Positions 20,830 through 41,990 of a stretch of 64,000 bases of DNA are shown here, one piece after another. The notes beneath the pieces were generated by a model. The model did no database searches and was not told the origin of the DNA. It saw nothing but the letters and a program-made list of their open reading frames with translations. The stretch is from the NCBI GenBank assembly GCA_032622095.1, contig CP136066.1, positions 90,231,319 to 90,295,318 of the forward strand, in the 5' to 3' direction. Within the stretch, counting starts at the first letter, position 1; each line of letters starts with the position of its first letter. This DNA comes from Siphonodentalium dalli (taxonomy: Eukaryota; Mollusca; Scaphopoda; Gadilida; Siphonodentaliidae). A program made the translations under genes and the position numbers.

Positions 20830-21850
20830 TGTTAAGTTTAAGCTAGTCGTTTGGTCGTCCGTCGACCGTGTGTGCGTGCATGTGTGCGTATGTCCGTCAA
20901 CGATATCCTTTGGCACACCCCACAGGCCATATCCCTCATCCGATCGTCACCAAACTTCATAGGGATCGTCGGGGTGACCTCTGAATGGGAGTTTACCATT
21001 ATTTGTTCTCCGAATTTCGTTGAAAAACAAGGACTCCAGCGCCATCTTGGATTTCAGTTTTGAATTCATCAGCACACCCTACATGCCACATCGCTCGCCC
21101 AAATTTAACCAAACTTCATACGGATCATCGGGGTGACCTCTAGATGGGAGTTTACCATTTTTTTTTTTACGAATTCTGTTAAAAATAATGGCTGCCAGCG
21201 GCCATCTTGGATTTTATTCTTTGAATGACTAAATCATTTAGCACACCCTACAGGTCACATCTCTCATCTGATCGTCACCAAACTTCATACGGATCTTTGG
21301 GGTGACGTCTAGATGGGAGCTTACCATTTTTTCCGAAATTTGTTGAAAAACATGGCCACCAGCGGCCATCTTGGATTTTTCTCTTTGCATAAATAAATCC
21401 TTGGTCACACTCTTAAGGCCACACCCCTCATCCGATCGTCACCAAAATTCATATGAATCGTCGGGGTGACCTCTGGGAGCTTACCATTTTTTTCCGAAGT
21501 CTGTTTTTTTAAATCTTGTCTTTGATTTTTACTCTTTGTATGACTAAATCCTTTAGCACACCCTACATGTCACATCTCTCATCCGATCGTCACTAAACTG
21601 CATATGGGTCTTCGGGGTGTCCTGTTGGTGGGAGCTTACCATTTATTTCCAAATTATGTTGAAAAACCTGGCCACCAGCGGCCATCTTGGATTTCAGTGG
21701 TGAATCCATTAGCACACCCTATATGTCACATCCCTCACCCGATCGTCACCAAACTACATATGGATCATCAGGGTGACATCTATGTTTTTTCAGAATTATG
21801 TTAAAAAACATGGCTGCCAGCGGCCATCTTGAATTTTACTCTTTGAAACA
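20830..21850 (+). repeat. ~160-bp tandem array, six units
   Basis: The core CGATCGTCACCAAACTTCAT or variants recurs near 20952, 21111, 21280, 21444, 21595 and 21751, with spacings of 151-169 bp. Each unit also has TTAGCACACCCTACAGG-like text, GGGGTGACCTCTAGATGGGA-like text and CAGCGGCCATCTTGGATTT. It is preceded by a GTCCGTC-rich leader (20845-20900). The units are diverged from each other, so the array is not recent. Open frames inside it are artefacts. Confidence 0.85.
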
Positions 21851-24848: not shown

Positions 24849-24991
24849 GTAAATTATCATATATGTGTACATGAAACACACCCACCATCACCAATTAAAC
24901 CAACCCACTCCGTTGCATTCCCGGACGCTGCCGCCTGCCAAACGTCACTCAATAACGTAACATGTTATATAGCTCAGCATGCATTTCGCAG

Positions 24992-27450
24992 AGGTCCGTG
25001 AAGTTGGATCGAAGTTCGAAGTTCGAAATTCGGTGGAGATTCGCGTGAAGTTGGATCGAAGTTCGAAGTTCGAAATTCGGTGGAGATTCGACCCCCACTT
25101 TTTTTGCATCAAGTGCGTTGTTGTGTTCCAATTCGTGCTCCCCTGCACGAATTTTGGGTCAAAAGTGATTTTTTTCACTTTTTCTGAGATACTGCTGGAC
25201 TTATAAAATTTAGGCACGGCGCTGGACTTAGAAAATTTCGCCTTCAATATTAAGGTGCCGAGGGGAAGTGGCACTGTTTATGGCTGGATCGGACTGAAAC
25301 TTGGCAGTTTTGATACTTTCCATCAGAGAATCTAGCAAACTAACGCTCAGCTTCGAGAAATTACTCGATCTATAGGTTTGAATTTCAATCTGAGCGTTCG
25401 AAATTCGGTGGATATTCGTTCGAAGTTCGAAATTCAGATTGAAATTCAACCCCCACTTTTTTTTGCCCCAACTTCGTTGTTGTGGTCCAATTCGTGCTCC
25501 CCTGTTCGAAATTTTGGTCAAAAGTAATTTTTTTCACTTTTTCTGAGATACTGTTGGACTTGGAAAATTTAAGAGAATCTAGCAAGTTAACGCTCAGCTT
25601 CGAGAAATTACTCGATCTATAGGTTTGAATTTCAATCTGAGCGTTCGAAATTCGGTGGAGATTCGTTCGAAATTCAGATTGAAATTCGACCCCCACTTTT
25701 TTGTGCCTTAAGTTCATTGTTGTGTTCCAATTCGTGCTCCCCTGCTCGAATTTTGGGTCCAAAGTGATTTTTTTCACTTTTTCTGAGATACTGCTGGACT
25801 TGGAAAATTTAGCCTTCAATATCAAGGTGCCGAAGGGAAGTGGCATTGTTTATGGCTGGATTGAGCTGAAATTTGGTATGTTTGATACTTTCCATAAGAT
25901 AATCAAGCAAACTAACGCTCAGCTTCGAGAAATTACTCGATCTATAGGTTTGAATTTCAATCTGAATTTCAATCTGGGCGAATTTCGATCTGGATTGAAG
26001 TTCGAAATTCAGATTGAAATTCGACCCCCACTTTTGTTTGCCTCAAATGCATTGTTGTGTTCCAATTCGTGCTCCCCTGCTCGAATTTTGGGTCAAAAGT
26101 GATTTTTTTCACTTTTTTTGAGATACTGCTGGACTTGGAAAATTTAGCCACGGCGCTGGACTAGGAAAATTTCGCCTTCAATATCAAGGTGCCGAAGGGA
26201 AGTGGCATTGTTTTTGGCTGGATTGAGCTGAAATTTGGTATGTTTGATACTTTCCATAAGAGAATCAAGCAAACTAACGCTCAGCTTCGAGAAATTACTC
26301 GATCTATAGGTTTGAATTTCAATCTGAGCGTTCGAAATTCGGTGGAGATTCAAGCAGCGTGAATTCCGTTACTTATTCCTTATTCACAAAATTTGGGAAA
26401 ATGTGGCAAATGACCATGGCAACGTCTTAAGTAAGGCGAGACGAAATTTCGTGTGGAAAAAAATCCGGGAAAAAAGTTCAAAAATGCCTCCAAAATAGGC
26501 AAAGTCCGAAAATAAACGGAAATAGTCCGAAACAAGTGGGGGTCATAAATGGCCACCTCGGCCAAAATTTTGGGTCAACAAAATTTGGGTCGAGTCCGAA
26601 AAAGTGGGTCGAATTTCAGTTTTCGCTCTGCTCGGTCGGGTCAATTTCGGAAAAAGTGGCAAACTGTCCCGTATTAAAAAATGGCCATCTGGGCCGAACT
26701 TTTTGAGCCGAAAATATTTTGGGTCGAGTCTGAAAAAGTGGGTCAAATAGAAATTCCCGCTCTGCTCGGTTAGGAAAATGTGGCAAATGACCATGGCAAC
26801 GTCTTAAGTAAGGCGAGACGAAATTTCGTGTTAAAAAAAATCCGGGGAAAAAGCTCAAATATGCCTCGAAAATAGGCAAAATTTGGGAAAATGTGGCAAA
26901 TGACCATGGCAACGTCTTAAGTAAGGCGAGACGAAACTTCGTGTGAAAAAAAGTTCGAAAATAAACGAAAATAGTCCGAAACAAGTGGGGGTCATAAATG
27001 GCCACCTCGGCCAAAATTTTGGGTCAACAAAATTTGGGTCGAGTCCGAAAAAGTGGGTCGAATTTCAGTTTTCGCTCTGCTCGGTCGGGTCAATTTCGGA
27101 AAATGTGGCAAACTGTCCCATATTAAAAAATGGCCACCTGGGCCGAACTTTTTGAGCCGAAAATATTTTGGGTCGAGTCCGAAAAAGTGGGTCAAATAGA
27201 AATTCCCGCTCTGCTCGGTTAGGAAAATGTGGCAAATGACCATGGCAACGTCTTAAGTAAGGCGAAAAAAATTTGGGTTGAGTTAAAAAAAGTGGGTCGA
27301 ATTTCAGTTTTCGCTCTGCTCGGTCGGGTAAATTTCGGAAAATATGGCAAACTGTCCCATATTAAAAAATGGCCACCTGGGCTGAACTTTTTGGGCCGAA
27401 ATTTTTTGGGTCGAGTCCGAGAAAGTGGGTCAAATAGAAATTCCCGCTCT
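24992..27450 (+). repeat. Left terminal inverted repeat (outer part), arrays A and B
   Basis: Array A (24992-26350) has units of about 240-360 bp with the words GAAGTTCGAAATTCGGTGGA, CGACCCCCACTTTTTT, CCAATTCGTGCTCCCCTG, TTTTTCACTTTTTCTGAGAT and CGCCTTCAATATCAAGGTGC. Array B (26380-27450) has units of about 410-480 bp with GGAAAATGTGGCAAATGACC, ATGGCAACGTCTTAAGTAAG, GGCGAGACGAAATTTCGTGT and GTCGAGTCCGAAAAAGTGGG. A joint word, GTGAATTCCGTTACTTATTC, marks the A/B border (26359). The reverse complement of the right repeat has the same order. Open frames across this region on either strand are products of the repeats. Confidence 0.9.
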
Positions 27451-29388
27451 ACACCGACTCGATCAACAAGTGCGAAGGTGACACCAGGCAACTTTTCAAA
27501 GTTGTGAAAAAAATGTGTGAGGAGAAACCGAATGAGACACTACCACCGCATGATGACGCAGGAAAATTGGCGGAGCAGTTTGGTGAATTCTTTTCTGAAA
27601 AGATAGAACTTATCCAAAAGAAGATTGACAACATCACCGTGAAAGCGCCTTGTGTCGACAAAGAGGAAGCCACGGAAACGTTCACAACATTCGACGATCT
27701 CGACCTTGACGATGTCGTTAAAATCATCAAACGCTCTTCAAATGCATCTTGTGAACTCGATCCTATACCAACAACGCTACTCAAGAAATGTGACTCCCTG
27801 ATACCTATCATCACCCAGTTGATAAACCTATCATTAAGCCAAGGACATGTTCCCAGTAGCTGGAAAACAGCCATAGTTCACCCTCTTCTCAAGAAATCCG
27901 GTGCTGACCTTGTTTTCAAGAACTTCCGACCCGTCAGCAACCTATCCTTCATTTCTAAATTGTGTGAAAAGGCAGTAATAGACCAACTCATTCGGCACAG
28001 CGAACAACATGCACCTCTTCCAATAAACACTTCTGCTTTCCGTCAACACCATTCAACTGAAACCGCGCTGCTTAAAGTCCAAAATGATATTCTCTGCAGC
28101 ATGGAAACAAGAAAGGTCACTCTGCTTGTGCTACTAGATTTGAGTGCTGCTTTCGACACCGTCCGCCGTGATATTCTTCTAGATACTCTACAATCTGACT
28201 TTGGTGTTCGCGGCACTGCAGCTATCTGGTTGAAATCTTACCTCACGAACCGATCACAGCAAATATCCATTAATGGCTCAAAGTCTACAAATTTCCCCAT
28301 CGAGTGCGGAGTTCCACAAGGAAGTTGTCTTGGACCCGTGCTGTTCTTATTCTACATTTCAAAATTATTCTCTGTTGTTGAAAGTCACCTCCCCGATGTT
28401 CACGGCTATGCAGATGATACCCAAATCTACTTTTCATTTCGACCGACAGAGAGAGGCGAAACTAAAGCACGTCAAATTGTGGAGAACTGTATTGTGGACA
28501 TTAGAGCGTGGATGATTACCAACCCACTCATGATAAATGACGATAAGACTGAATTCATAATCATTGGTTCTCGACAACAACTTCAGAAAGTCAACATCAG
28601 TTCAATTCATGTGGGAGACGCCGACATACCAACAAAGGACACTGTTCGCAACCTGGGATCGTATTTTGACACAAACATGACAATGGATAACCATATCTCT
28701 AATATGTGTAAGAAGGCGTTCAGAGGTTTATACAAAATCCGACAAATTAGACAATACCTCGATGTAGACTCAACTAAGACATTGGTCCATGCTTTTGTCA
28801 CGTCACACTTAGATTACTGTAATTCTTTACTGTATGGACTACCGGATTACCAGTGTGATCGCCTGCAAAAAGTGCTAAATGCTGCGGCGCGAGTTGTATC
28901 ATACACTCCTCGGCATGAACATATAACTCCAGTTCTCAAGCAATTACACTGGCTGCCAGTGGAGTATCGAATCATGTTCAAAATTATTTTGCTTGTATTC
29001 AAATCTCGTAATAACATGTCACCATTGTATATACAGGATATGATCAAAGACAGAAATGTGTGTACATATGGATTACGATCTGATAGCAGTATGCTTTTGT
29101 ACACTCCTTTCAACAAACAGAAAACGTTTGGCGATAGGGCATTTTCATTTGCAGGTCCACATCTATGGAATAGCATTCCACCTCACTTGAAAATATTCAC
29201 TGATTTAAATATGTTTAAGACCGGCCTCAAAACATATCTCTTTGATGTAGCATTTAATTCCTAGATATATGTGCATGTACATGTATTATGCTGATTAGGC
29301 AATGAGCTCGATGTAATGTAAAGCGCCGTTGAATATGTACTCATAATATTGAGCGCTATACAAATTAATTATTGTATTGTATTGTATT
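27451..29388 (+). mobile_element. CR1/L2-type LINE, 5'-truncated, inserted in the left terminal repeat
   Basis: The insertion is exact. Other repeat units read TTCCCGCTCTGCTCGGT, and here the left flank ends CCCGCTCT (27450) and the right flank resumes GCTCGGTCAGG (29389). No base is lost or visibly duplicated. The 3' end has AAAGCGCCGTTGAATATGTA, then GAGCGCTATACAAATT and a short ATTGT tail repeated three to four times (29370-29388). This short tandem tail in place of poly-A, with an AGCGCTATA-like end, is typical of the CR1/L2 group. The 5' end is truncated inside ORF2, before the reverse transcriptase. Confidence 0.93.
27504..29264 (+). CDS. LINE ORF2 fragment: reverse transcriptase (586 codons, open)
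   Basis: RNA-directed DNA polymerase of a non-LTR retrotransposon, used for target-primed reverse transcription. Visible blocks in order: fingers with WKTAIVHPLLKKSG and NFRPVSNLSFISKLCEK (about residues 115-155); palm motif A LLVLLDLSAAFDTV (about 205-220); GVPQGSCLGPVLFLFYISKL (about 269-288); and the catalytic YADDTQIY (about 300-307). The carboxy-terminal half has HLDYCNSLLYGLP, HITPVLKQLHWLPVEYRI and FGDRAFSFAGPHLWNSIP, all typical of CR1/L2 elements. The frame is open from the truncation point (about 27451) and has no stop inside, so the first Met at 27504 is not a natural start. Intactness implies a young insertion. Endonuclease and ORF1 are missing, so this copy cannot move by itself. 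Confidence 0.95.
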   Translation: MKKMCEEKPNETLPPHDDAGKLAEQFGEFFSEKIELIQKKIDNITVKAPCVDKEEATETFTTFDDLDLDDVVKIIKRSSNASCELDPIPTTLLKKCDSLIPIITQLINLSLSQGHVPSSWKTAIVHPLLKKSGADLVFKNFRPVSNLSFISKLCEKAVIDQLIRHSEQHAPLPINTSAFRQHHSTETALLKVQNDILCSMETRKVTLLVLLDLSAAFDTVRRDILLDTLQSDFGVRGTAAIWLKSYLTNRSQQISINGSKSTNFPIECGVPQGSCLGPVLFLFYISKLFSVVESHLPDVHGYADDTQIYFSFRPTERGETKARQIVENCIVDIRAWMITNPLMINDDKTEFIIIGSRQQLQKVNISSIHVGDADIPTKDTVRNLGSYFDTNMTMDNHISNMCKKAFRGLYKIRQIRQYLDVDSTKTLVHAFVTSHLDYCNSLLYGLPDYQCDRLQKVLNAAARVVSYTPRHEHITPVLKQLHWLPVEYRIMFKIILLVFKSRNNMSPLYIQDMIKDRNVCTYGLRSDSSMLLYTPFNKQKTFGDRAFSFAGPHLWNSIPPHLKIFTDLNMFKTGLKTYLFDVAFNS

Positions 29389-29468
29389 GCTCGGTCAGGA
29401 CAATTTGGGAAAATGTGGCAAATGACCATGGTAACGTGTTAAGTAAGGCGAGACGAAATTTCCTGTGG
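29389..29468 (+). repeat. Left terminal inverted repeat (inner part, after the LINE)
   Basis: Continuation of array B after the LINE: GCTCGGTCAGGACAATTTGG, then GGCAAATGACCATGGTAACG and GGCGAGACGAAATTTCCTGT. It ends at about 29468, where unique, GC-richer sequence begins. Confidence 0.85.
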
Positions 29469-29592
29469 CTGTCCTTGATCCCCTCAGCAAATAAAATGAA
29501 CTCCATATTGGTCAATCCAGTTCAAGAACATCTCCAAGAAGGCCGGGCACAGTGCAAACCTAGTCCCAGATGATGACACGTGGGATGAACTT

Positions 29593-29844
29593 CTACCTCA
29601 TGCGATCGGGCGTCCAGTCATTTTGACCGTTCCATCGGAAGAAGATGTGGTATGTCTGGGCTTTGACCCCTCGGATCCGCATTTCATTGGCGATGCGATG
29701 GGTCGGGGTAAACACGAGGGGGCCTCTTACCCCGAAGAGCTCGATTGCTCCTGTAGTCTTGCCATTGCCCCCGCCACCATTAAAGTAGCTCAGCTGGTGC
29801 CGGGTCAGTGAGTCATTGTAGCTGGGCGCCGTTGATTCGACCAT
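29593..29844 (-). pseudogene. Superfamily-1 helicase fragment (fossil) in the long-repeat element
   Basis: The minus-strand text has a clear Walker A, GGGGNGKTTGAIEL. The spacing and words VFTPTHRIANEMR and GVKAQTYHIFFRW follow, corresponding to helicase motifs Ia and Ib (TPT/TH...F). This is the ATP-binding start of an SF1 helicase of the Pif1/RecD or viral type, an enzyme that unwinds DNA or RNA with ATP. The Walker B and later motifs, which should lie at lower coordinates, are missing because the terminal repeat begins there. It is a broken remnant. The neighbouring minus-strand piece at 29992-30291 reads upstream of it in the same direction and was probably part of the same gene. Confidence 0.75.
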
Positions 29845-29991
29845 CGGTGTGGCTTGGCTACAGTATTCTGGCTTGGAGAGGTACGCGCGTGTTCCTGCGG
29901 CATGTACAACTGCTCCTCCTTATCACGCCACTGAGCCGGGCCCACCGGTAAGAGGAATGGATCCACAGTCAAGCATTTAACACACAATTTC

Positions 29992-30291
29992 TCACCACAG
30001 TCTCATAGTTGGGGCGACGTACGCATTGACACCGTCAAGCTTCTGCAACGCGGTCTTCTGGGCGTAAATGCTATCAGTGGCCACCCGGAAAGCTTCATCG
30101 GGTTCACATCTTGCCAGCACAGCAAGGAGGTTGGTGTGGCCAGCATTGAGGCCCTCAAGTGGGTGTACTGGTGCTGCGAGCCATCGTCGTATGTGAGAAT
30201 GTGGCCAAGGGGACACTGTTGGGGGCGCCAACCAGAGTGCCACTTTGGGGGTGTCCCTTACCAAAAAGTTAAGCTTTCCCTGATCGACCAC
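29992..30291 (-). pseudogene. DNA polymerase B-like fragment (fossil) in the long-repeat element
   Basis: The minus-strand text contains GKLNFLVRDT and RVATDSIYAQKTALQKLDGV. ATDSIY resembles the YxDTDS catalytic motif C of family-B DNA polymerases, with preceding LLAVLARCEPDEAF text at the spacing expected of the palm. More fragments of the same reading direction (for example HPVIPAWFGKHFAYQV and WLPEYRDEGCSIIGKF near 30300-30530) continue at higher coordinates. A polymerase followed by an SF1 helicase would suit a self-replicating element. The resemblance is by eye and the family is inferred. The gene is broken. Confidence 0.5.
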
Positions 30292-30299
30292 AAGCCTCC

Positions 30300-32052
30300 G
30301 TGTCAGTCTTTTGCCGTCGTCATTGCTGTCCTGGATGAACTTGCCTATGATGCTGCAGCCTTCATCACGATATTCAGGGAGCCAGACCGCGGTTCGTTGC
30401 TCAAAGGTGATGATGGCCTCATGGACCTTCAGGCTCTTCAGGAGATCTGACTCAACCAGAAAGGCGAGCAGGTGTGTGGGGGCACAGACCTGATATGCGA
30501 AATGCTTTCCGAACCAGGCGGGGATGACGGGGTGGCAGTTAGGGGCGAACTCCCATTCCTATACCTCGGCGAAACCGGTGCCGATATCTTGGGGAGGGGG
30601 CGTTGATTGGGACCGGGTCATGCGGTGGGTGGGGTGCCCGAATCTGTCAAAATATGGCTTGGCCTCGCCATGGCCTTGGAAGCTGGCCGGTTAGCAGGCT
30701 TTCATGTCGATGCTGGCGACGTCTCTTATATCGCAGCCCGTCACGTTCCAGATGCCTCCATGACCATGCTCGACACATGCTTTCTGTGTGTCATCTCCGA
30801 GATTAGCCTGGTCGGTTTCCAGCCGTTGTGCTCTTTTGTCATGATACTGGCTGTGTGGTTCACACCGACGGCTCGGTCTGCGAGGGACTCATCGCCCAAT
30901 TCAGCAAGGCTTCCTGGAGGTTTTGGTCAGTCTCCAGTGTCCTGTGTGTGCGGCCGTCTTGGAGCACAATCTGGTCCATACTGAGCTCTGTCTTGCATCC
31001 CCTAGCAGACAGACTGAAATCGGCTCGTCCTGGGTTGCGTTTCGAATGGCCTCCCAGATATCGCCTTAATATAAGTGAACCTGCCTGGAGCATGGGAATT
31101 GGGGGTCTTTGGACCAGGCGTGGCTGTTGTGGCAGATGAGCTCTACTTTACCTCTGATCCCGTTGCCCCTAAGCTGGTATTTCCAGTTGGTGTAGATGTC
31201 CTCATCGGCTATATCTCGGAGTATGATCGCACGCTTCAGTATCTTCTCGAGGACGGCGACATCCTCGACCGCGGCCTGTTTGATGAACTCGCTCCTCTCA
31301 CTTCTGAATTTTCTTTCTCCTCGTGGGCGTGAGTCCCTGCCCTCTCAGCGCACCTTCAACGTGTTCCTCCACTGGGCAACACAGTTGATGTCGCCGTCCT
31401 TCATTGGTGCTAGGTTTGCAGGATCGGGGATAGATGCCATAGACGACCGCAGTGACACAGGGTAGGCATTCTCATAGTATGGGCGGTCAATACCCGTCTG
31501 GCGTCAGCACACCGGGCTTGAGACATGAATGATCTCAACGACGCCTTGTCCCTTCTTCCTTTCGGCCCTGACCGGGTCGAACTTGTCTGAAACCACCCAG
31601 TTGCCGTCATCATGCTGCCTCAAGAACTTAACTTTGAGGGTGTACTCTCGTTCTGAAAGCTCTCTGACGACTTGTGCTGCTCTCTTATCTGCCATATGAC
31701 CGTCGAATCTGTTGAGTCGACACTCTCTACCCTCCATGTGGAGAGGACTGCGGCTGCGCCGTCGACTTCAAACTCGTTTTTGGCATCGTTCATCATGTCA
31801 ACCCACGGTTCGTCGGCCGGGTTCCTCACCGAGTGCGGGGCCTGGACATCCAGGTCAAATTGTCCCCTCTCCCTCATTTATCTGAAGTCCGATTCTCTGA
31901 GGACCCCATGGCCTTTTCGCATAATGCTCAGCACGACATTCCATCGCCACTTCCTTTCGCCAATGTGCATCAACGGTTCTTTTCTCCTCATTGGGTTCCT
32001 TTGCAGTCTCTCCTCGATGGTTTCGCACGCCGTGACCTCGGCGTCGATCAGC
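30300..32052 (-). pseudogene. Decayed coding core of the long-repeat element (fossil)
   Basis: GC-rich, minus-strand protein-like text continues over several frames, for example DEPWVDMMNDAKNEFEVDGA near 31750-31820 and VKFLRQHDDGNWVVSDKFDP near 31560-31625. The latter looks like a short beta-rich DNA- or protein-contact segment. The longer plus-strand open frames here are shadows caused by high GC. I do not recognise the families. By position this should be the amino-terminal part of the polymerase-like protein and perhaps one more gene. It is broken in many places. Confidence 0.5.
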
Positions 32053-32283
32053 TTAAGCTTGCAGACGTGAAACAAACTCTGCAGCACGGACGTCGGCAAT
32101 CGCCTTAATTAGATCAGGCTTTTGAAGAGAGGAATACTCCCTCAAGCCGAGATCTTTGGCTTGGGCTCGAAGCTTGCGTATAATAGACATGTCCTGGATA
32201 GGTATATTCATTGTAACCACATATCTAATTGAAAACGTCAATGGCCGCCAACCGAGCAAATCCCTTTTCATTTCTGTAACCAC
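32053..32283 (-). pseudogene. SAP-like domain fragment (fossil)
   Basis: The minus-strand text IIRKLRAQAKDLGLREYS then SLQKPDLIKAIADVRAAEF fits a SAP motif (helix, LKxxGL turn, KxxLI helix), a small DNA-binding fold. It starts just after the zinc-finger piece at 32225-32461 in the same direction, so both may come from one protein. It is inside the long-repeat element and treated as a fossil. The SAP assignment rests on the pattern only. Confidence 0.5.
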
Positions 32284-32461
32284 ACCTCACGCAGAGTGAT
32301 ATTTGGTTCGTTGCACCCTTACCGCAAACACGGCACGGCTTTGTGCATGATCCTTTTCGCAATCGGGCCAGATGAACTTTACAGTACTCACCCAGACAGC
32401 GTAGGGCACAGAGCTCTGTAGAGTTCAAGGTAATCCACCGGCATGAATGTTGACCCTTCAT
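32225..32461 (-). pseudogene. Cysteine-rich zinc-finger fragment (fossil)
   Basis: The minus-strand text TELCALRCLGEYCKVHLARL then CTKPCRVCGKGATNQISLCV and RCGY has paired cysteines (C..C..YC..H and PC.VCGKG....LC..CG) consistent with one or two zinc-binding modules. It lies first in the reading direction, before the SAP-like and polymerase-like pieces. No start region or promoter is recognisable. Confidence 0.5.
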
Positions 32462-32469
32462 ATTACTTC

Positions 32470-35400
32470 AGGAAGTTCAGGTATACCCATAAAAACGGGT
32501 ATATCTAAAAGGAGAATACGGGCCGGTGAAGGTAGTGGGCTTTCCATGACTCTCCCTGCTTGCATTGTCCCAATTATTTGAGTACGTGGAGGTCTATATG
32601 CTTGATACCGGGGAACTGGGGCTGGGAGCTTTTTTGGGTTGAATGAGCTGGTGCATTCACCCCCTGCTGGGGACAGGGGCTGGAAGGCTCAATGGAGCCC
32701 GTTTATGGCCCGAATCAGTTGGCGCGTTCACCCCCTGCCGTTCCTTTGTACAGTATAAGATGATAGTTGTGAACCGAAACCATTGCATCACAGGTGATGA
32801 ATCGTCCGATAGAGGGTGACGATGCAGCATACCATATAATTAGTTTGAAAGTCGTGACTTGAACGGTGGTTTGGTTGAATTCGGAGAATTTTAATTAATA
32901 AAGTGTTGGTTTAAGTAAATGTTCATCTTTATTTCATCGCTGTAGTATAATACTGTATAGCCATCATATTCGTCTGTTCGTATCTGGTGTCCATAAATAT
33001 CAAAACGGCTATGGTTGCCATTTTGGCCACCTCTTGTGGTTTTCGGTTTTTATAGTATCGTTTGGGGCGGACCACCCTACCGCACCGTTTATTTGGTCAG
33101 AATCGGTTCATAAATACCAAAAGGGCTATGGTTGCCAATTTGGCCACCTCCTGTGGCAACCGCACGGGCTAGAGCGGTGCGGTTTTCGGTTTTTATATTT
33201 TATTTTTGGGGTGGGTCACCCTACCGCACCGTTTATTTGGTCAAAATATGTTTCCGAATAAGGAATAAGGAACTGGGAATAAGTAACCGATGTCACCGTA
33301 GTGACAGTTTTAAATGGTCAGATCTTATACAACAGAATAGACACGAACTTATGTATATACAAAATGAGAAGCCAGTAAAACATCGTTTACAGTTCCGTTC
33401 CGAAATTATGATACCAAACTTAGCGACTAAGAGGTGGCAAGACTCTAAATGTTTCGGCGGGTATTTGGCGCGGGTCATCCATCCATGCAGTCAAATTGGC
33501 CGAAATCCTTACCGTTGGTCCATACCACATTTTCACCTCCTCAGGGTGGTACCATCTGGGGTGATGGTGGGGGTAGAGATGTCTCTAGGGGGTATTTGAG
33601 ACAGGCCACCCACCCACCCATGCCGTCAAATTGGCCGAAATCCTCAGTGTTCTCGAAAATGGTCCATATCCCATATTCAGCCCATAGGCCCACTTTTTCG
33701 GACTTGGCCCGAACATTTTTGGCCGAGGTGGCAGGGGGGGGTCTGGGGAAAAATGCACATATAGGGCCCAAAAACTTTTTTCCGACCCCGAGTGAACCAC
33801 CACCCCATTTGTGCAAAAAAAAAAATCCCTCCAAAATTTTGGGGACCCTCCCCCCCCCCCTTTCTCATGTTTTTATCAAAATTTCAGAGTTTTTTTTGGC
33901 CGTTCTTCAATAACTGTGCTAACTGCCTTCCAAACCCATTCCTCTATCCTTTTTTGGTGCAAACTCTTGTTGTGTACCATTAAGACTCGAGCAAAAACAT
34001 ACTTAATTGGTAAACACAGATCAGAAAAACGAAAAATAAACTGTATTTCCAGGTGTTTCCAGGTATTTTCAGTATCTAACAACAATAATAAAGCATTGTG
34101 CAGGTACACTATATGTCTCAAATCACCCTAGACCCCGTTATAGCCTTAATATATCGAGTGTGTTGTGTCTGACTGAGAACACTGGCCAGTGTAAATAGTG
34201 GTAAACAGGTCAGGGGTTCCACAATTATTTGTACATGACCAAAGAACTCTTTAGTCTTATCCACCGGGGTGGGATGGGGGAGGGGAATTGTTTTTGGTTA
34301 GGTATACACATAGATATATGGTTATTATACCCCCCCCCCCCCGATATTAGTCGGCGGGTATATAGTTGACGTCTCGAGCCGTCCGTGCGTCCGTCCGTAC
34401 ATACATTTTGCATTATAACTCAAGAGACGGTTGTCATATTTTGATACCCTATGGCATGGTGACGGACCAGAAATGGGGAACGAATATGCATAATATCACG
34501 GGTTGTGACATGACCGCTTTTGACTAACCATATCAGTAAAGGAAAATAGAATGTGTGGACCTAAATATTATCAAATGTTCAAGAACTGTTGAGTTTTAGT
34601 GGAGCTTCAGTTGCTATGGAATTTAAATATTTGTATGTACATTTGTGCACTAGAGTTTGCAGTCTAGTCTCAGTCAGAGTTTATTCTTGATTTTACTTTT
34701 AGTTTGAACTTTGAAGACATTGAAGAATGTCATTTCTCAATGCATCTGAATGCATCACATTATTTCAGTTCATCTATTTGTAAGTGATAACAGTATATAT
34801 ATATTAGTATTTTAGTTTAGTCTTGTTGAGCAGTAAAGCAGAAGTTCGGAAATTCAATGAGAATAGCGTCACCTTCAGTAACGGTCATTCATCATAACCA
34901 ATTCAGTTTTATTTGGATAATTGTTGCAAATTAACATTCAAGATCAGAAATAACCAGAAGGAATGAATTTGATTACATGCCAGAACAAGACAGTATATCA
35001 GACATTAGAAATTTATGAGATACCCTTTTCAATTTCATGTTATGCAACAATCAGATTAATGGTATCAAGTCATCATTGAGTATTCACCATGTAGTATCCA
35101 ATTTGTGATACAGTTTTTTTGTTTTATTACTTTTATTCAGGTAATATATTAATTTTGTTACTAAATATTTCTTCCGTTGATCATAAGTTTCCTGAACGCT
35201 ATTACGGTGGTCCACTGTGAAGTGGGCCGGGATCTTGTGAAATACAGAATGTTGCTAAATATGAGGCTAAATAGTCACTATAGCTGCCTATATAGCCCTA
35301 TATCAATAAGCATGGTACTAACATGCTTACAAACAACATTACATGGTCAGTACTTGTAAATTGTTTTTTTTAAATCCATTTTTGAAAAAATTTACAAGCA

Positions 35401-35480
35401 CGATTTTTTCGGCCTCTGGACCAATCACCCAACCACCCCGGCCCTATATTCGGATTTTTTTTGCAGACCCCCCCCCCTGG
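32470..35480. other. Non-coding right-hand core of the long-repeat element
   Basis: No gene is supported here. There are two tandem pairs. About 33005-33110 and 33125-33245 share GGTTGCCATTTTGGCCACCT and CACCCTACCGCACCGTTTAT. About 33450-33540 and 33590-33680 share GTCAAATTGGCCGAAATCCT. The stretch 33650-33730 resembles array B of the terminal repeats. A C run is at 34327-34341, followed by a GTCCGTCC-rich leader (34378-34400) like that before the array at 20830. The rest, to 35480, is AT-rich. Confidence 0.55.
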
Positions 35481-37687
35481 ATGTGGCCATTTATGACCAC
35501 GCACTTGTTTCGGACTATTTCCGTTTATTTTCGGACTTTTGTTTCACACGAAATTTCGTCTCGCCTTACTAAAGACGTTGCCATGGTAGTTTGTCACATT
35601 TCCCCAAATTTTCCTGACCGAGCAGAGCGGGAATTTCTATTTGACCCACTTTTTCGGACTCGACCCACAAACTTTTCGGCCCAAAAAGTTCGGCCCAGGT
35701 GACCATTTTTTAATATGTGACAGTTTGCCACATTTTCAGAAATTTTCCCGACAGAGCAGAGCGAAAACTGAAATTCGGCCAACTTTTTAGGACTCGGCCC
35801 AAAAAATTTTCGGCCCAAAATATTTGGCCGATGTGGCCATTAATGACCCATCACTTCTTTCGGCCAATTTCCGTTTATTTTCGGAATTTGCCTAATTTCG
35901 AGACATTTTTTAACTTTTTTTCCGGATTTTTTATCACAGGAATTTTCGTCTCGCCTTAAGACGTTGCCATGGTCATTTGCAACATTTCCCCAAATTTATT
36001 GAATAAGGAATAAGTAACGAAATTCACGCTGCTGGAGATACAACCCCTAATTTTTATGGATAACCACAGCAGCCACGTGACTATCATTGTGGATTCTTCT
36101 TGTGCACCACTAGTCCATCTAGAAATCACAAATCAAGTCACAAGTCCAGCGTCGTGGCAAAAGTCCAGCAGTATCTCAGAAAAAGTGAAAAAACTAAAAT
36201 TTTGACCCAAAATTCGAACAGGGGAGCACGAATTGGAACACAACAATGAACTTGAGGCAAAACAAAAATTAGGGGTTGAATCTCCACCGAATTTCGAACT
36301 TCGAACGAATAGGTTCGAACGCTCAGATTGAAATTCAAACCTATAAATCGAGTGATTTCTCGAAGCTGAGCGTTAGTTTGCTGGATTCTCTACCGGAAAG
36401 TATCAAAAATGCCAAGTTTCAGCTCGATCGAACCATAAACAGTGCCACTTCCCTCCGACACCACCCCTATCATAATATTGAAGGCGAAATGTTTGAGACA
36501 AAAAAAAGTGGGGGTAGAATTTCAATCTGAATTTCGAACTTCGAACGAATCTCCACTGAATCTCCACCGAATTTCGAACGCTCAGATTGAAATTCAAACC
36601 TATAGATCGAGTAATTTCTCGAAGCTGAGCGTTAACTTGCTAGATTCTCTTATGGAAAGTATCAAAACTGCCAAGTTTCAGTCCGATCCAGCCATAAACA
36701 GTGCCACTTCCCTTCGGCACCTTAATATTGAAGGCGAAATTTTCTAAGTCCAGCGCCGTGCCTAAATTTTCTAAGTCCAACAGTATCTCAGAAAAAGTGA
36801 AACAAATAACTTTTGACCAAAATTTCGAACAGGGGAGCACGAATTGGACCACAACAACGAAGTTGGGGCAAAAAAAAGTGGGGGTTGAATTTCAATCTGA
36901 ATTTCGAACTTCGAACGAATATCCACCGAATTTCGAACGCTCAGATTGAAATTCAAACCTATAGATCGAGTAATTTCTCGAAGCTGAGCGTTAGTTTGCT
37001 TGATTCTCTTATTGAAAGTATCAAACATACCAAATTTCAGCTCAATCCAGCCATAAACAATGCCACTTCCCTTCGGCACCTTAATATTGAAGGCGAAATT
37101 TTCTAAGTCCAGCGCCGTGCCTAAATTTTATAAGTCCAGCAATATCTCAGAAAAAGTGAAAAAAATAACTTTTGACCCAAAATTCGAGCAGGGGAGCACG
37201 AATTGGAACACAACAATGAACTTAAGGCACAAAAAAGTGGGGGTCGAATTTCAATCTGAATTTCGAACGAATCTCCACCGAATTTCGAACGCTCAGATTG
37301 AAATTCAAACCTATAGATCGAGTAATTTCTCGAAGCTGAGCGTTAACTTGCTAGATTCTCTGATGGAAAGTATCAAAACTGCCAAGTTTCAGTCCGATCC
37401 AGCCATAAACAGTGCCACTTCCCCTCGGCACCTTAATATTGAAGGCGAAATTTTCTAAGTCCAGCGCCGTGCCTAAATTCCAGCAGTATCTCAGAAAAAG
37501 TGAAAAAAATCACTTTTGACCCAAAATTCGAGCAGGGGAGCACGAATTGGAACACAACAACGCACTTGATGCAAAACAAAGTGGGGGTCGAATCTCCACC
37601 GAATTTCGAACTTCGAACTTCGATCCAACTTCACGCGAATCTCCACCGAATTTCGAACTTCGAACTTCGATCCAACTTCACGGACCT
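35481..37687 (-). repeat. Right terminal inverted repeat
   Basis: The reverse complement follows the left repeat in order: array A from 37687 down to about 36130, the joint word with GAATAAGGAATAAGTAACG (36001-36019), then array B down to about 35481. The unit counts differ from the left repeat (2.21 kb here, 2.54 kb there), mostly in array B. The outermost 20 bases are identical between the ends, while inner array B has diverged strongly. Confidence 0.9.
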
Positions 37688-37696
37688 ATTTCGCAG

Positions 37697-40080: not shown

Positions 40081-40188
40081 TTAATATTTAAGATATATAA
40101 CTCGTGTTCGATCAAGTTTTACCTCCGTTAAATTGTGATATATATATATTATAAGTATTAAACGTAAGATTCTAGCTGTTCTTTTCAG

Positions 40189-40445
40189 GAGTCAACTGAT
40201 CCCGATTATAGAAAACTGTGGGACGCAATGCGCGATGGGCCGCGCGTGACTGAGGTAGAGGATATACTAGAGCACGTTTATTCTGGGAAATATGCGTATT
40301 TAGGTGGGAGGACGGGAGTGGAAGACATAGCAGCACAGCCTGAACATTGTGGTAATTTCGCTGTGGCAGACGAAACTTTTAACACAGCTAGTTACGGATT
40401 CATTTTACCCGAAGGTGCGGCTTTCAAATGGCTATTCGATAAAAA
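40189..40445 (+). CDS. iGluR exon, S2 lobe
   Basis: The exon encodes ESTDPDYRKLWDAMRDGPRV, then VYSGKYAYLGGRTGVEDIAA and ADETFNTASYGFILPEGAAF. It matches the S2 pattern: ...W..M....., G.YAF(L/I).E.....E, then GYGFALPKGSP. The acceptor is CTGTTCTTTTCAG and the donor AAAAA|GTATGT, phase 2. At the site where an acidic residue holds the ligand amino group (E705 in GluA2, in LLEST) I read Gly (YLGGRT), so the usual Glu/Asp seems to be missing. A Cys (PEHCGNF) is in the place of the conserved S2 disulphide cysteine, and the last exon has its partner KTCTRG. Confidence 0.95.
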
Positions 40446-41990
40446 GTATGTTAAATGTATATTTCTGATATATACTTATGTATTACGTTTTCTTTGTTCA
40501 TGTTGTATATTGTGTACAAAAACAAACACTACTATATGCGTTTATTATCTAATAAAAAAGATATTCAGAGATACAAATATAGAAGATATATTCAACAGAT
40601 TGAGAATGTTGCTGTATATATGTACACTATATGTACACGAACTTCCAATCAGTTAATTTATCATGAACCTATACATAACAGGTATGGAGATAATAATAGT
40701 TAAATACATACAATATTTACATAGGCATGTGAAATTCCGGATGACAAATGTTGTACTACGTGGATGCATACATAACATTCCTATATAGATACATACATGT
40801 ATATCTATAACATGCACTGTACCATGTATATCAAGATTGTAAATATATAAGTATCTATAAATAAATATATTTATTATGCATATATACATATACATATTTA
40901 TATATTGGTAACTTATGGTTACTAGTTCGAAATTCGAAAATCCCACCATCCTCATCACCATCATCACTGTCATCGTGGTAGTCAGCCTCGTCGAGACCAT
41001 CACCATCGCACCGTCATCGTAACCACGAAAACGAAACTTCTCCAACAACAACAACAACTACATTATTATTCAGTAGTGTTTAACTTTCATCACGTATAGT
41101 CAAAATCGTCATCCTTGCAATATTGATGATGGTGATGATGATGGCGACTATCATCATCATCATCGTCGTCCTCGTCGTCATCACATTGTCGTCGTCGAAA
41201 TCGTCGACGTCATCCTTCTAGTCGTTATCGTCTTCCGGTAGCGCATTACGTTTCGTAAACGTCTATAAGTTGTATATGGCCCATGGTTGGGTGAGGGGCG
41301 CCCGGTAAGTTGTATCAACTGTTGGTGCCGTCTCCAAATGCCATCCTATACATGCATATATAGTTAATTAGTTGTACTATAATTTATGTGTTATGAGGAA
41401 TCAAATAGTTCAAACAGGTATATTAAAGCCAGGCGATTGAACGTTGAATTCCGACAACTTTGTATTAACGTTCTATGGGTGCAGTGTATATTTTACTCTC
41501 TACTTTGATCCTATGATAAAAATTAATAATTATGGCTCCAACGACAACCGATAAATTCTAGGAACTTAGTATCTTATTCGCAATTCTTATCAGTAATAGT
41601 TCATTATGCGACAGTTATCAACTGTCGATTTATAGAACGTCGCGGTTCGCATTAGGCGCATACGAGTGTTTCGCTTGAATATAGATACACTCGCGTTAAT
41701 CTATATATAGGTCTGACTCTATGCCTATATATGGACAAAACAAAAATTTACGAATTCCTTCACAATAATTATGCCAGCTTGTATCTGCCAAACGGCGGTT
41801 CAAACCGAGGGGTTTCATAAAACCTGCTTTAAACTGCATGGGGATGAGGAACTGGTCGTTAGGTCTATTGTGAGGCTGATGATTGTATACCTCTTAATAC
41901 ACGCGTGTATGTAAGATGGATTATATAGTTACTGATCTGTTCTACATGCATGTAGGATTTTGCGATTGATTGTATCAATATATGTTTCAG
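40446..41990. other. Last iGluR intron with triplet-repeat tracts
   Basis: It is AT-rich with many TATA/TACATA words. Two compound triplet tracts, ATC/GTC/CAC type, lie at about 40942-41060 and 41120-41230. They give long open frames on both strands that I reject as genes. Nothing else is recognised. Confidence 0.6.

Follow-up and report, generated by a model that had tools for sequence, protein, structure and literature searches.

Two nested foldback-type elements, the inner one carrying pieces of a virus-like gene module, in the genome of the scaphopod Siphonodentalium dalli

A 12.7-kb locus in the genome of Siphonodentalium dalli consists of two nested foldback-type elements, not one, both of which made 9-bp target duplications. 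The locus lies in a stretch of 64,000 nucleotides (contig CP136066.1, here C6:90231319-90295318, referred to below as the window) of an assembly of 2.23 Gb in 9 contigs, denoted by C and a number. An outer element (24992-37687, ends RGGTCCGTGAAGTT) encloses an inner element (26353-36033, ends AGCAGCGTGAATTT), which in turn encloses a long interspersed nuclear element (LINE). A sequence-only reading of the window had taken 24992-37687 for a single element; that the DNA is mobile was borne out, and that it is one unit was not, given the two nested elements and the LINE. The reading preferred here, to which a probability of about 0.6 is assigned, is that of a nested foldback composite whose inner family comprises truncated derivatives of a polinton-like virus (PLV) joined to foldback ends and moved in trans by a transposase of the Mutator-like element (MULE) or foldback type. 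The features of the locus, in window coordinates, are the following.

24983..24991, no strand: outer target duplication, left, ATTTCGCAG
24992..26352, plus strand: outer terminal repeat, left arm, AGGTCCGTGAAGTTGG..., two 47-bp units and then larger array units; same ends genome-wide
26344..26352, no strand: inner target duplication, left, GGAGATTCA, within the outer array
26353..27437, plus strand: inner terminal repeat, left arm, AGCAGCGTGAATTCCGTTACTTATTCC..., array-built
27438..29387, plus strand: nested LINE, RVT frame open (608 aa), ATTGT-repeat tail; RVT_1 E 4.6e-29
29388..29466, plus strand: remainder of the inner left array, adjoining the truncated helicase
29467..29919, minus strand: superfamily 1 (SF1) helicase-like, N-terminal part only, Walker A GGGGNGKTT; cut at the array and hence without the HNH part; AAA_19 E 0.0018, below cut-off
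29992..30888, minus strand: PolB-palm-like pieces, frames broken; motif C RVATDSIYVQK and motif A SIDMKAC, by eye; no Pfam match
31066..31470, minus strand: vOTU-like stretch, frames broken; DGDINCVAQ ... CHNSHAW, motifs by eye
32053..32286, minus strand: SAP/Rho_N-like piece; Rho_N E 2.5e-6, above its cut-off
32225..32467, minus strand: zinc-finger-like piece, CRVCG...CVRCG; phrog_15796 (function unknown) E 3.3e-5
32468..35479, no strand: inner region without recognised genes, largely common to the other copies compared
35480..36033, minus strand: inner terminal repeat, right arm, inverted
36034..36042, no strand: inner target duplication, right, GGAGATACA, 8/9; the C7 copy has GGAGATTCA, 9/9
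36034..37687, minus strand: outer terminal repeat, right arm, inverted, ending ...CACGGACCT
37688..37696, no strand: outer target duplication, right, ATTTCGCAG

By direct reading of the sequence, the outer composite proper runs from 24992 to 37687 as AGGTCCGTG...CACGGACCT. Its inverted ends (24992-25105 and 37574-37687) extend over 114 nt at 99% complementarity, longer than the exact 20 bases first claimed, and the perfect 9-bp duplication also claimed is present as ATTTCGCAG at 24983-24991 and 37688-37696. The ends of more than 2 kb described earlier are indeed inverted but are not a single repeat, being made up of outer arms (24992-26352 and 36034-37687) and inner arms (26353-27437, with 29388-29466, and 35480-36033). 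The outer arms are array-built, and long pieces of them match each other at 82-98%. When the 218-bp left end was compared with the genome, all 40 scored candidates (of 1126) matched nearly all of it, several as convergent pairs, and the 27-base outer terminus had 201 exact occurrences genome-wide against none for the reversed pattern. Of the 37 convergent pairs that the first 100 listed outer termini gave, 31 span 0.5-3.9 kb, another five 8.4-11 kb, and the last spans 52 kb. Perfect 9-bp duplications flanked seven of the nine pairs readable in a first set (ATTTCGCAG in the window; CTGTTTACA; TGATTATAC; ACAAAATGT; TGAAATATG; TGTTCTTAT; GCACTTTTG), the two imperfect pairs being those at C3:185.1 Mb, where a T run has slipped by one base, and C3:37.03 Mb, which has no duplication. 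A second set gave four perfect pairs out of five, the remaining one at 6/9, for an overall count of 11 of 14 pairs tested. The elements at C1:171.27, C1:14.8 and C1:77.4 Mb have identical flanks with the duplication GCACTTTTG and are therefore sited in copies of one host repeat; since three of the 11 perfect pairs thus share one host repeat, the count by distinct sites is 9 of 12. A chance match or a local inverted duplication as the source of the outer ends is ruled out by these duplication counts. The outer family is thus defined by RGGTCCGTGAAGTT ends, array-built terminal repeats, a distance between ends of mostly 0.5-3.9 kb, and 9-bp duplications.

The second family has its ends in the window at 26353 and 36033 (AGCAGCGTGAATT), flanked by GGAGATTCA and GGAGATACA. 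Its 33-base terminus occurs exactly 176 times in the genome, and the first 27 bases of that terminus occur 859 times at up to 3 mismatches; neither pattern occurs reversed. Two standalone inner elements, C1:112016958-112026079 (GTACAAATG) and C3:29187088-29195306 (GTGATTGAC), have perfect 9-bp duplications, as do 11 of 15 further inner pairs, giving 13 of 17 in all (the 19 listed convergent pairs minus those at C3:152.87 and C4:214.69 Mb). When left and right flanks of different elements were combined (n=380), only 2 combinations agreed at 9/9, and both paired the same two elements, whose flanks are identical. The inner family accordingly has AGCAGCGTGAATTT ends, array-built arms and 9-bp duplications, and one of its members inserted into an outer array. 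Long inverted repeats of tandem units and a duplication within 8-10 bp, the marks of foldback-type elements, are found in outer and inner families alike. As a side observation, a 21-kb inner pair at C4:135.72-135.74 Mb has flanks that are mutually reverse-complementary, which is suggestive of an inverted duplication that took in both element and flank.

Nesting is not peculiar to the window. Both inner junctions lie inside an outer array in four copies (window, C6:74.2, C7:127.4 and C2:202.8 Mb), with the inner duplication at 9/9 in the C7 copy and at 8/9 in the other three, and one inner junction is seen at four more loci (C1:171.26, C3:185.1, C3:80.9 and C1:222.4 Mb). The uninterrupted outer array site, 2-3 mismatches from the joined flanks, exists elsewhere, for example within the outer termini at C2:117959482 and C3:7698485, among 53 matches in total that include those at composite junctions and in their own arrays. 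The inner junctions shared among copies show that the whole composite transposed by means of its outer ends; it is now present at several loci, the window included. In six other copies the composite core is 93-99% identical to that of the window in long matches (shorter cross-matches inside the core were set aside), and the PolB piece of the window has nine matches (its own locus counted) of 80-100% identity that cover most of the query. The inner subfamily therefore spread along with the outer element. In this way a short, array-only element can acquire a cargo of nearly 10 kb and carry it to new sites.

These results also answer the check for further copies that the sequence-only reading had proposed: further copies exist that agree with the window in ends, duplication length and core, and the recurring duplications speak against a lone copy with a chance match. 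That ends, 9-bp duplication and core recur together would also suit the view that 24992-37687 is the unit of a single, undescribed class of self-replicating element. The inner element, however, exists alone with its own ends and duplications, which refutes that unit, and at 0.5-3.9 kb 31 of the 37 listed outer pairs are too short for arms plus core, so that this explanation retains next to no credibility. Part of the earlier claim survives in another form, in that 9-bp-duplicating foldback ends and the viral module described below may together form one autonomous class.

Position and orientation show that the inner family carries pieces of one module, consisting of a vOTU-like/PolB-like/SF1 helicase/HNH gene, a convergent RVE integrase and a further gene, G2. 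Searches with query pieces gave 170 genome matches for PolB, 146 for the helicase and 152 for the integrase (best candidates, several per locus). For the first 100 of the 176 inner termini, compared with 125 gene features on C1-C4, a PolB or helicase match lay within 12 kb inward of 37 and outward of none, against a mean of 0.11 and a maximum of 1 in 200 sets of random positions; near-identical copies were counted separately and composites were included. The same inward count for 100 listed outer termini was 10, consistent with composites. Of 25 inner convergent pairs (19 found by the 33-base terminus and 6 by a shorter pattern, with gene positions picked by hand), 16 contain one or more of the genes PolB, helicase, integrase and G2; one of the 16, at C1:66.4 Mb, is counted on a short weak match only. 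Read from either end, the order G2, integrase, helicase, PolB is kept in all 11 inner pairs that hold at least two of the genes. In a comparison of 70 integrase with 96 helicase matches, 40 integrase matches lay within 4 kb of a helicase, all 40 in convergent orientation, and the other 30 had no listed helicase nearby. In the window itself, the SF1-helicase-like, PolB-like, SAP-like and zinc-finger-like pieces reported earlier are present on the minus strand (29467-32467) and broken by frameshifts. The helicase gene there is frameshifted and cut off within the helicase, and the window copy is a fossil, incapable of autonomous replication or movement.

Relatives have helicase motifs and an HNH-like region, named by eye, and show the order PolB palm, SF1 helicase, HNH, with no intact frame spanning all three and with Pfam matches weak or absent. 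The PolB-like motif C reads ATDS, its first Asp missing, and a vOTU-like Cys/His pair, again recognised by eye, precedes the palm. The integrase matches rve at E 1.4e-7 and 32.1 bits, for a cut-off of 32.6. For G2, an open frame of 417 aa at C7:208.47 Mb was taken; it has no match in Pfam and no relatives among phage records. At C3:230911830-230925513 (~14 kb), matches to PolB, helicase, integrase and, over short stretches, G2 are followed by an A32-like packaging ATPase. This gene, at C3:230.925 Mb and ~13 kb from the four others, is the best of 150 scored Pox_A32 matches, and a 163-residue open stretch of it matches a packaging terminase family at E 2.8e-10. The interval C3:230.91-230.93 Mb is the fullest viral module located, as judged by match positions apart from the ATPase stretch. 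Most of the Pox_A32 matches share a 227-aa open frame of near-identical score found on all nine contigs, and so represent an abundant family that belongs to a different element.

Several other searches added little. The double-jelly-roll capsid (PF21738) gave 0 matches, and the controls gave none either, so that this search was uninformative; with that proviso, no element came to light that is complete and bears capsid genes. Searches of viral contigs with single proteins (helicase piece, G2), which find close relatives only, returned no relatives, and solved structures compared by sequence offered no useful match for the helicase, integrase and ATPase pieces. AlphaFold2 models were not used, given their low mean predicted local distance difference test scores: 40.6 for a 400-aa open frame of the vOTU/PolB region, modelled together with 4 more pieces, and 33.0 for G2 alone.

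The Tlr1-like helicases of PLVs and transpovirons combine vOTU, a PolB palm lacking the first Asp of motif C, an SF1 helicase and a C-terminal HNH or GIY-YIG domain (PMC11071308). By its motifs the present module appears to match this "Tlr1-like helicase" module in broken and truncated form, with a vOTU-like region, a PolB-like palm without that Asp, an SF1-helicase-like part, a C-terminal HNH-like region and an RVE integrase as in Tlr1 (PMC11071308). The integrase adjoins the replication gene, a trait of Polinton and Tlr1 and not of all PLVs. Motifs and neighbours together suggest that the module derives from a Tlr1-like PLV. The replication genes thus belong to the inner family and resemble a kind already described, the Tlr1-like helicases (PMC11071308). 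Unlike the known module, it stands in an animal genome, in broken copies only, with foldback array ends, 9-bp duplications and no capsid found in the uninformative search above.

The preferred reading starts from what the sequence shows: the outer family, ends RGGTCCGTGAAGTT, makes 9-bp duplications; a member of the inner family, ends AGCAGCGTGAATTT, inserted into an outer array; the composite then transposed by its outer ends; and the inner family carries pieces of the vOTU-like/PolB-like/SF1 helicase/HNH gene, the convergent RVE integrase and G2. This module was presumably supplied by a Tlr1-like PLV of which the inner elements would be truncated derivatives on foldback ends, in a Teratorn-like manner. 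One MULE/foldback-type transposase would move both families in trans. Judging from duplication length and foldback structure, the enzyme behind this mobility may be of MULE or foldback type acting in trans, or the integrase with an unusual 9-bp stagger; we infer it indirectly because no listed MULE match lies inside the termini. The first type is preferred because 9 bp agrees better with that group than with the 5-7-bp duplications of three PLV-type insertions (PMC7805220). A single enzyme for both families is suggested because CGTGAANTT occupies positions 6-14 of both the outer GGGTCCGTGAAGTT and the inner AGCAGCGTGAATTT ends, a likeness noticed by eye and post hoc, with no control. MULE transposases are abundant in the genome (PF10551; 813 candidates). 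Within C4:190576121-190582963, one such match, with a 627-aa open frame, lies ~1 kb outside the inner terminus at C4:190581735, and the element at that terminus holds helicase and integrase matches.

A number of observations weigh against this reading. Inward of the termini, MULE matches (PF10551) numbered 0 of 100 for the inner and 0 of 100 for the outer family among the listed matches (the best 150 of 813 candidates were scored and the 77 on C1-C4 used). Pfam supports neither the PolB nor the vOTU assignment. Four of the 15 further inner pairs have imperfect duplications (2/9; 1/9; an 8-bp match; flanks mutually reverse-complementary). A module copy at C8:23.45 Mb has no window array within ~6 kb, and the one at C1:168.6 Mb sits between a different pair of inverted arrays. 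In a tree of 21 rows (midpoint-rooted for drawing only, with group labels assigned from the arrays seen), the window core and cores of the C1:112/C3:29 type form separate clades that are not sisters, with non-AGCAGCG copies beside the latter; ends and module therefore recombined more than once, or ends decayed. Finally, among the families searched, the inner cargo is one viral module, more uniform than expected of random capture, which favours ends native to the virus.

It should be noted that the arrays at C1:168.6 Mb, with a unit of ~360 bp, are an unrelated third inverted pair flanking another truncated copy of the same gene, for which a target duplication was looked for and none obtained. 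Beside the module copies at C8:23.45 and C2:223.88 Mb there is a partly palindromic repeat of ~400 bp, possibly a further short inverted-repeat element.

The uniform cargo would be explained if the inner family were itself a Tlr1-like PLV lineage, with the arrays as its own terminal repeats, an RVE integrase that makes the 9-bp duplications, and truncated members and the outer family mobilised in trans. Module genes in 16 of 25 inner pairs, the order kept in the 11 multi-gene pairs, the 40 of 40 convergent integrase and helicase neighbours and the lack of a listed MULE inside the termini all agree with such a lineage, as do the AG...CT ends that the inner family and the outer ends of the window have in common with Polintons. 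This explanation is nevertheless unlikely in our judgement: module copies without AGCAGCG ends exist, no capsid-bearing member was seen (in a capsid search that was uninformative), and the three PLV-type insertions, made by a tyrosine recombinase or RVE integrase, have duplications of 5-7 bp (PMC7805220). A broader formulation, which we put forward tentatively and with the odds somewhat against it, is that of a new transposon-virus hybrid, a Tlr1-like PLV lineage in an animal genome behind foldback array ends. Either an RVE integrase of its own or MULE-type machinery would make the 9-bp duplications, and the hundreds of copies in the genome would be truncated members of the lineage together with array-only satellites, namely the outer family.

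The separate clades and the C1:168.6 copy in another array family could also mean that foldback elements captured fragments of endogenous viruses by chance, several times, owing to the abundance of such fragments in the genome and with no functional fusion, for which Pack-MULE transduplication is a precedent. Breakpoints indeed differ, lying within the helicase in the window type and in the part before the palm, where the copy starts, in the C1:112 type. The gene order kept in 11 inner pairs runs counter to repeated accidents, and no other searched family was seen inside inner pairs (captured host genes were not searched for); chance capture is accordingly improbable.

Among known systems, the preferred composite of foldback ends and PLV genes has partial counterparts. 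Polintons (Mavericks) have AG...CT ends and make 6-bp target duplications. The present elements share such ends and, as the sequence-only reading had held, differ from a standard Polinton in duplicating 9 bp, not 6; the PolB-like part is moreover joined to an SF1 helicase and an HNH-like region, and no capsid was found by the uninformative search. PolB, here by motifs read by eye, and an RVE integrase are common to both (PMC4642659). OmPLV, a decaying endogenous PLV of Oxyrrhis marina, likewise fuses PolB to an SF1 helicase, with the helicase N-terminal and PolB C-terminal, unlike here, where the PolB part comes first (PMC12721341). MULEs make 8-11-bp duplications, and the Rehavkus group, with 9 bp, minisatellite and long terminal repeats, resembles the present families in duplication and repeats (PMC6446971); no listed match to a MULE transposase lies within the termini here, in agreement with the distinction from MULEs drawn earlier. 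Tetris foldback elements have 8-10-bp duplications, terminal repeats of tandem units, a variable middle, no transposase found and a non-autonomous habit (PMC4079207). The long tandem-unit repeats, variable middle, duplication length and non-autonomy recur here; Tetris copies are without conserved open frames, whereas the inner family bears a viral replication and integration module. The closest architectural precedent is Teratorn, in which a piggyBac DNA transposon is joined to herpesvirus genes and has spread in animal genomes (PMC10175614). It likewise joins a DNA transposon to DNA-virus genes in an animal genome, and it differs from the present case, with its foldback ends, 9-bp duplications, PLV genes and truncated copies only. 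Of the Teratorn-type set of a transposase and a whole viral genome between the ends, neither was seen in what was examined.

PLVs have been described mainly from protists and metagenomes (PMC10120064, PMC4642659), and many foldback elements are without a transposase of their own (PMC4079207). Here a foldback element and PLV-like genes are physically joined in an animal genome, in many copies and with precise 9-bp duplications; a literature search at title and abstract level returned no description of a foldback-PLV combination in an animal. Besides Teratorn, the locus thus provides another candidate case of a DNA transposon combined with a DNA virus, and the source of foldback mobility becomes testable.

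Minor features of the window concern the LINE and the surroundings of the composite. The LINE at 27438-29387 is probably a recent insertion, since its reverse transcriptase frame is still open, and the core matches at the other loci compared include no counterpart of it. Downstream of the composite, a frame at 40168-40458 resembles an exon of an ionotropic glutamate receptor. In a 162-aa form it has no Pfam match up to E 0.1 and no PDB match at 0.001, and as a 97-aa frame it has four weak PDB matches (E 0.43-0.78), all of them glutamate receptors. The host intron in which the sequence-only reading placed the composite is thus at most a possibility. Upstream, a 164-bp tandem array of 5.5 copies occupies 20905-21782.

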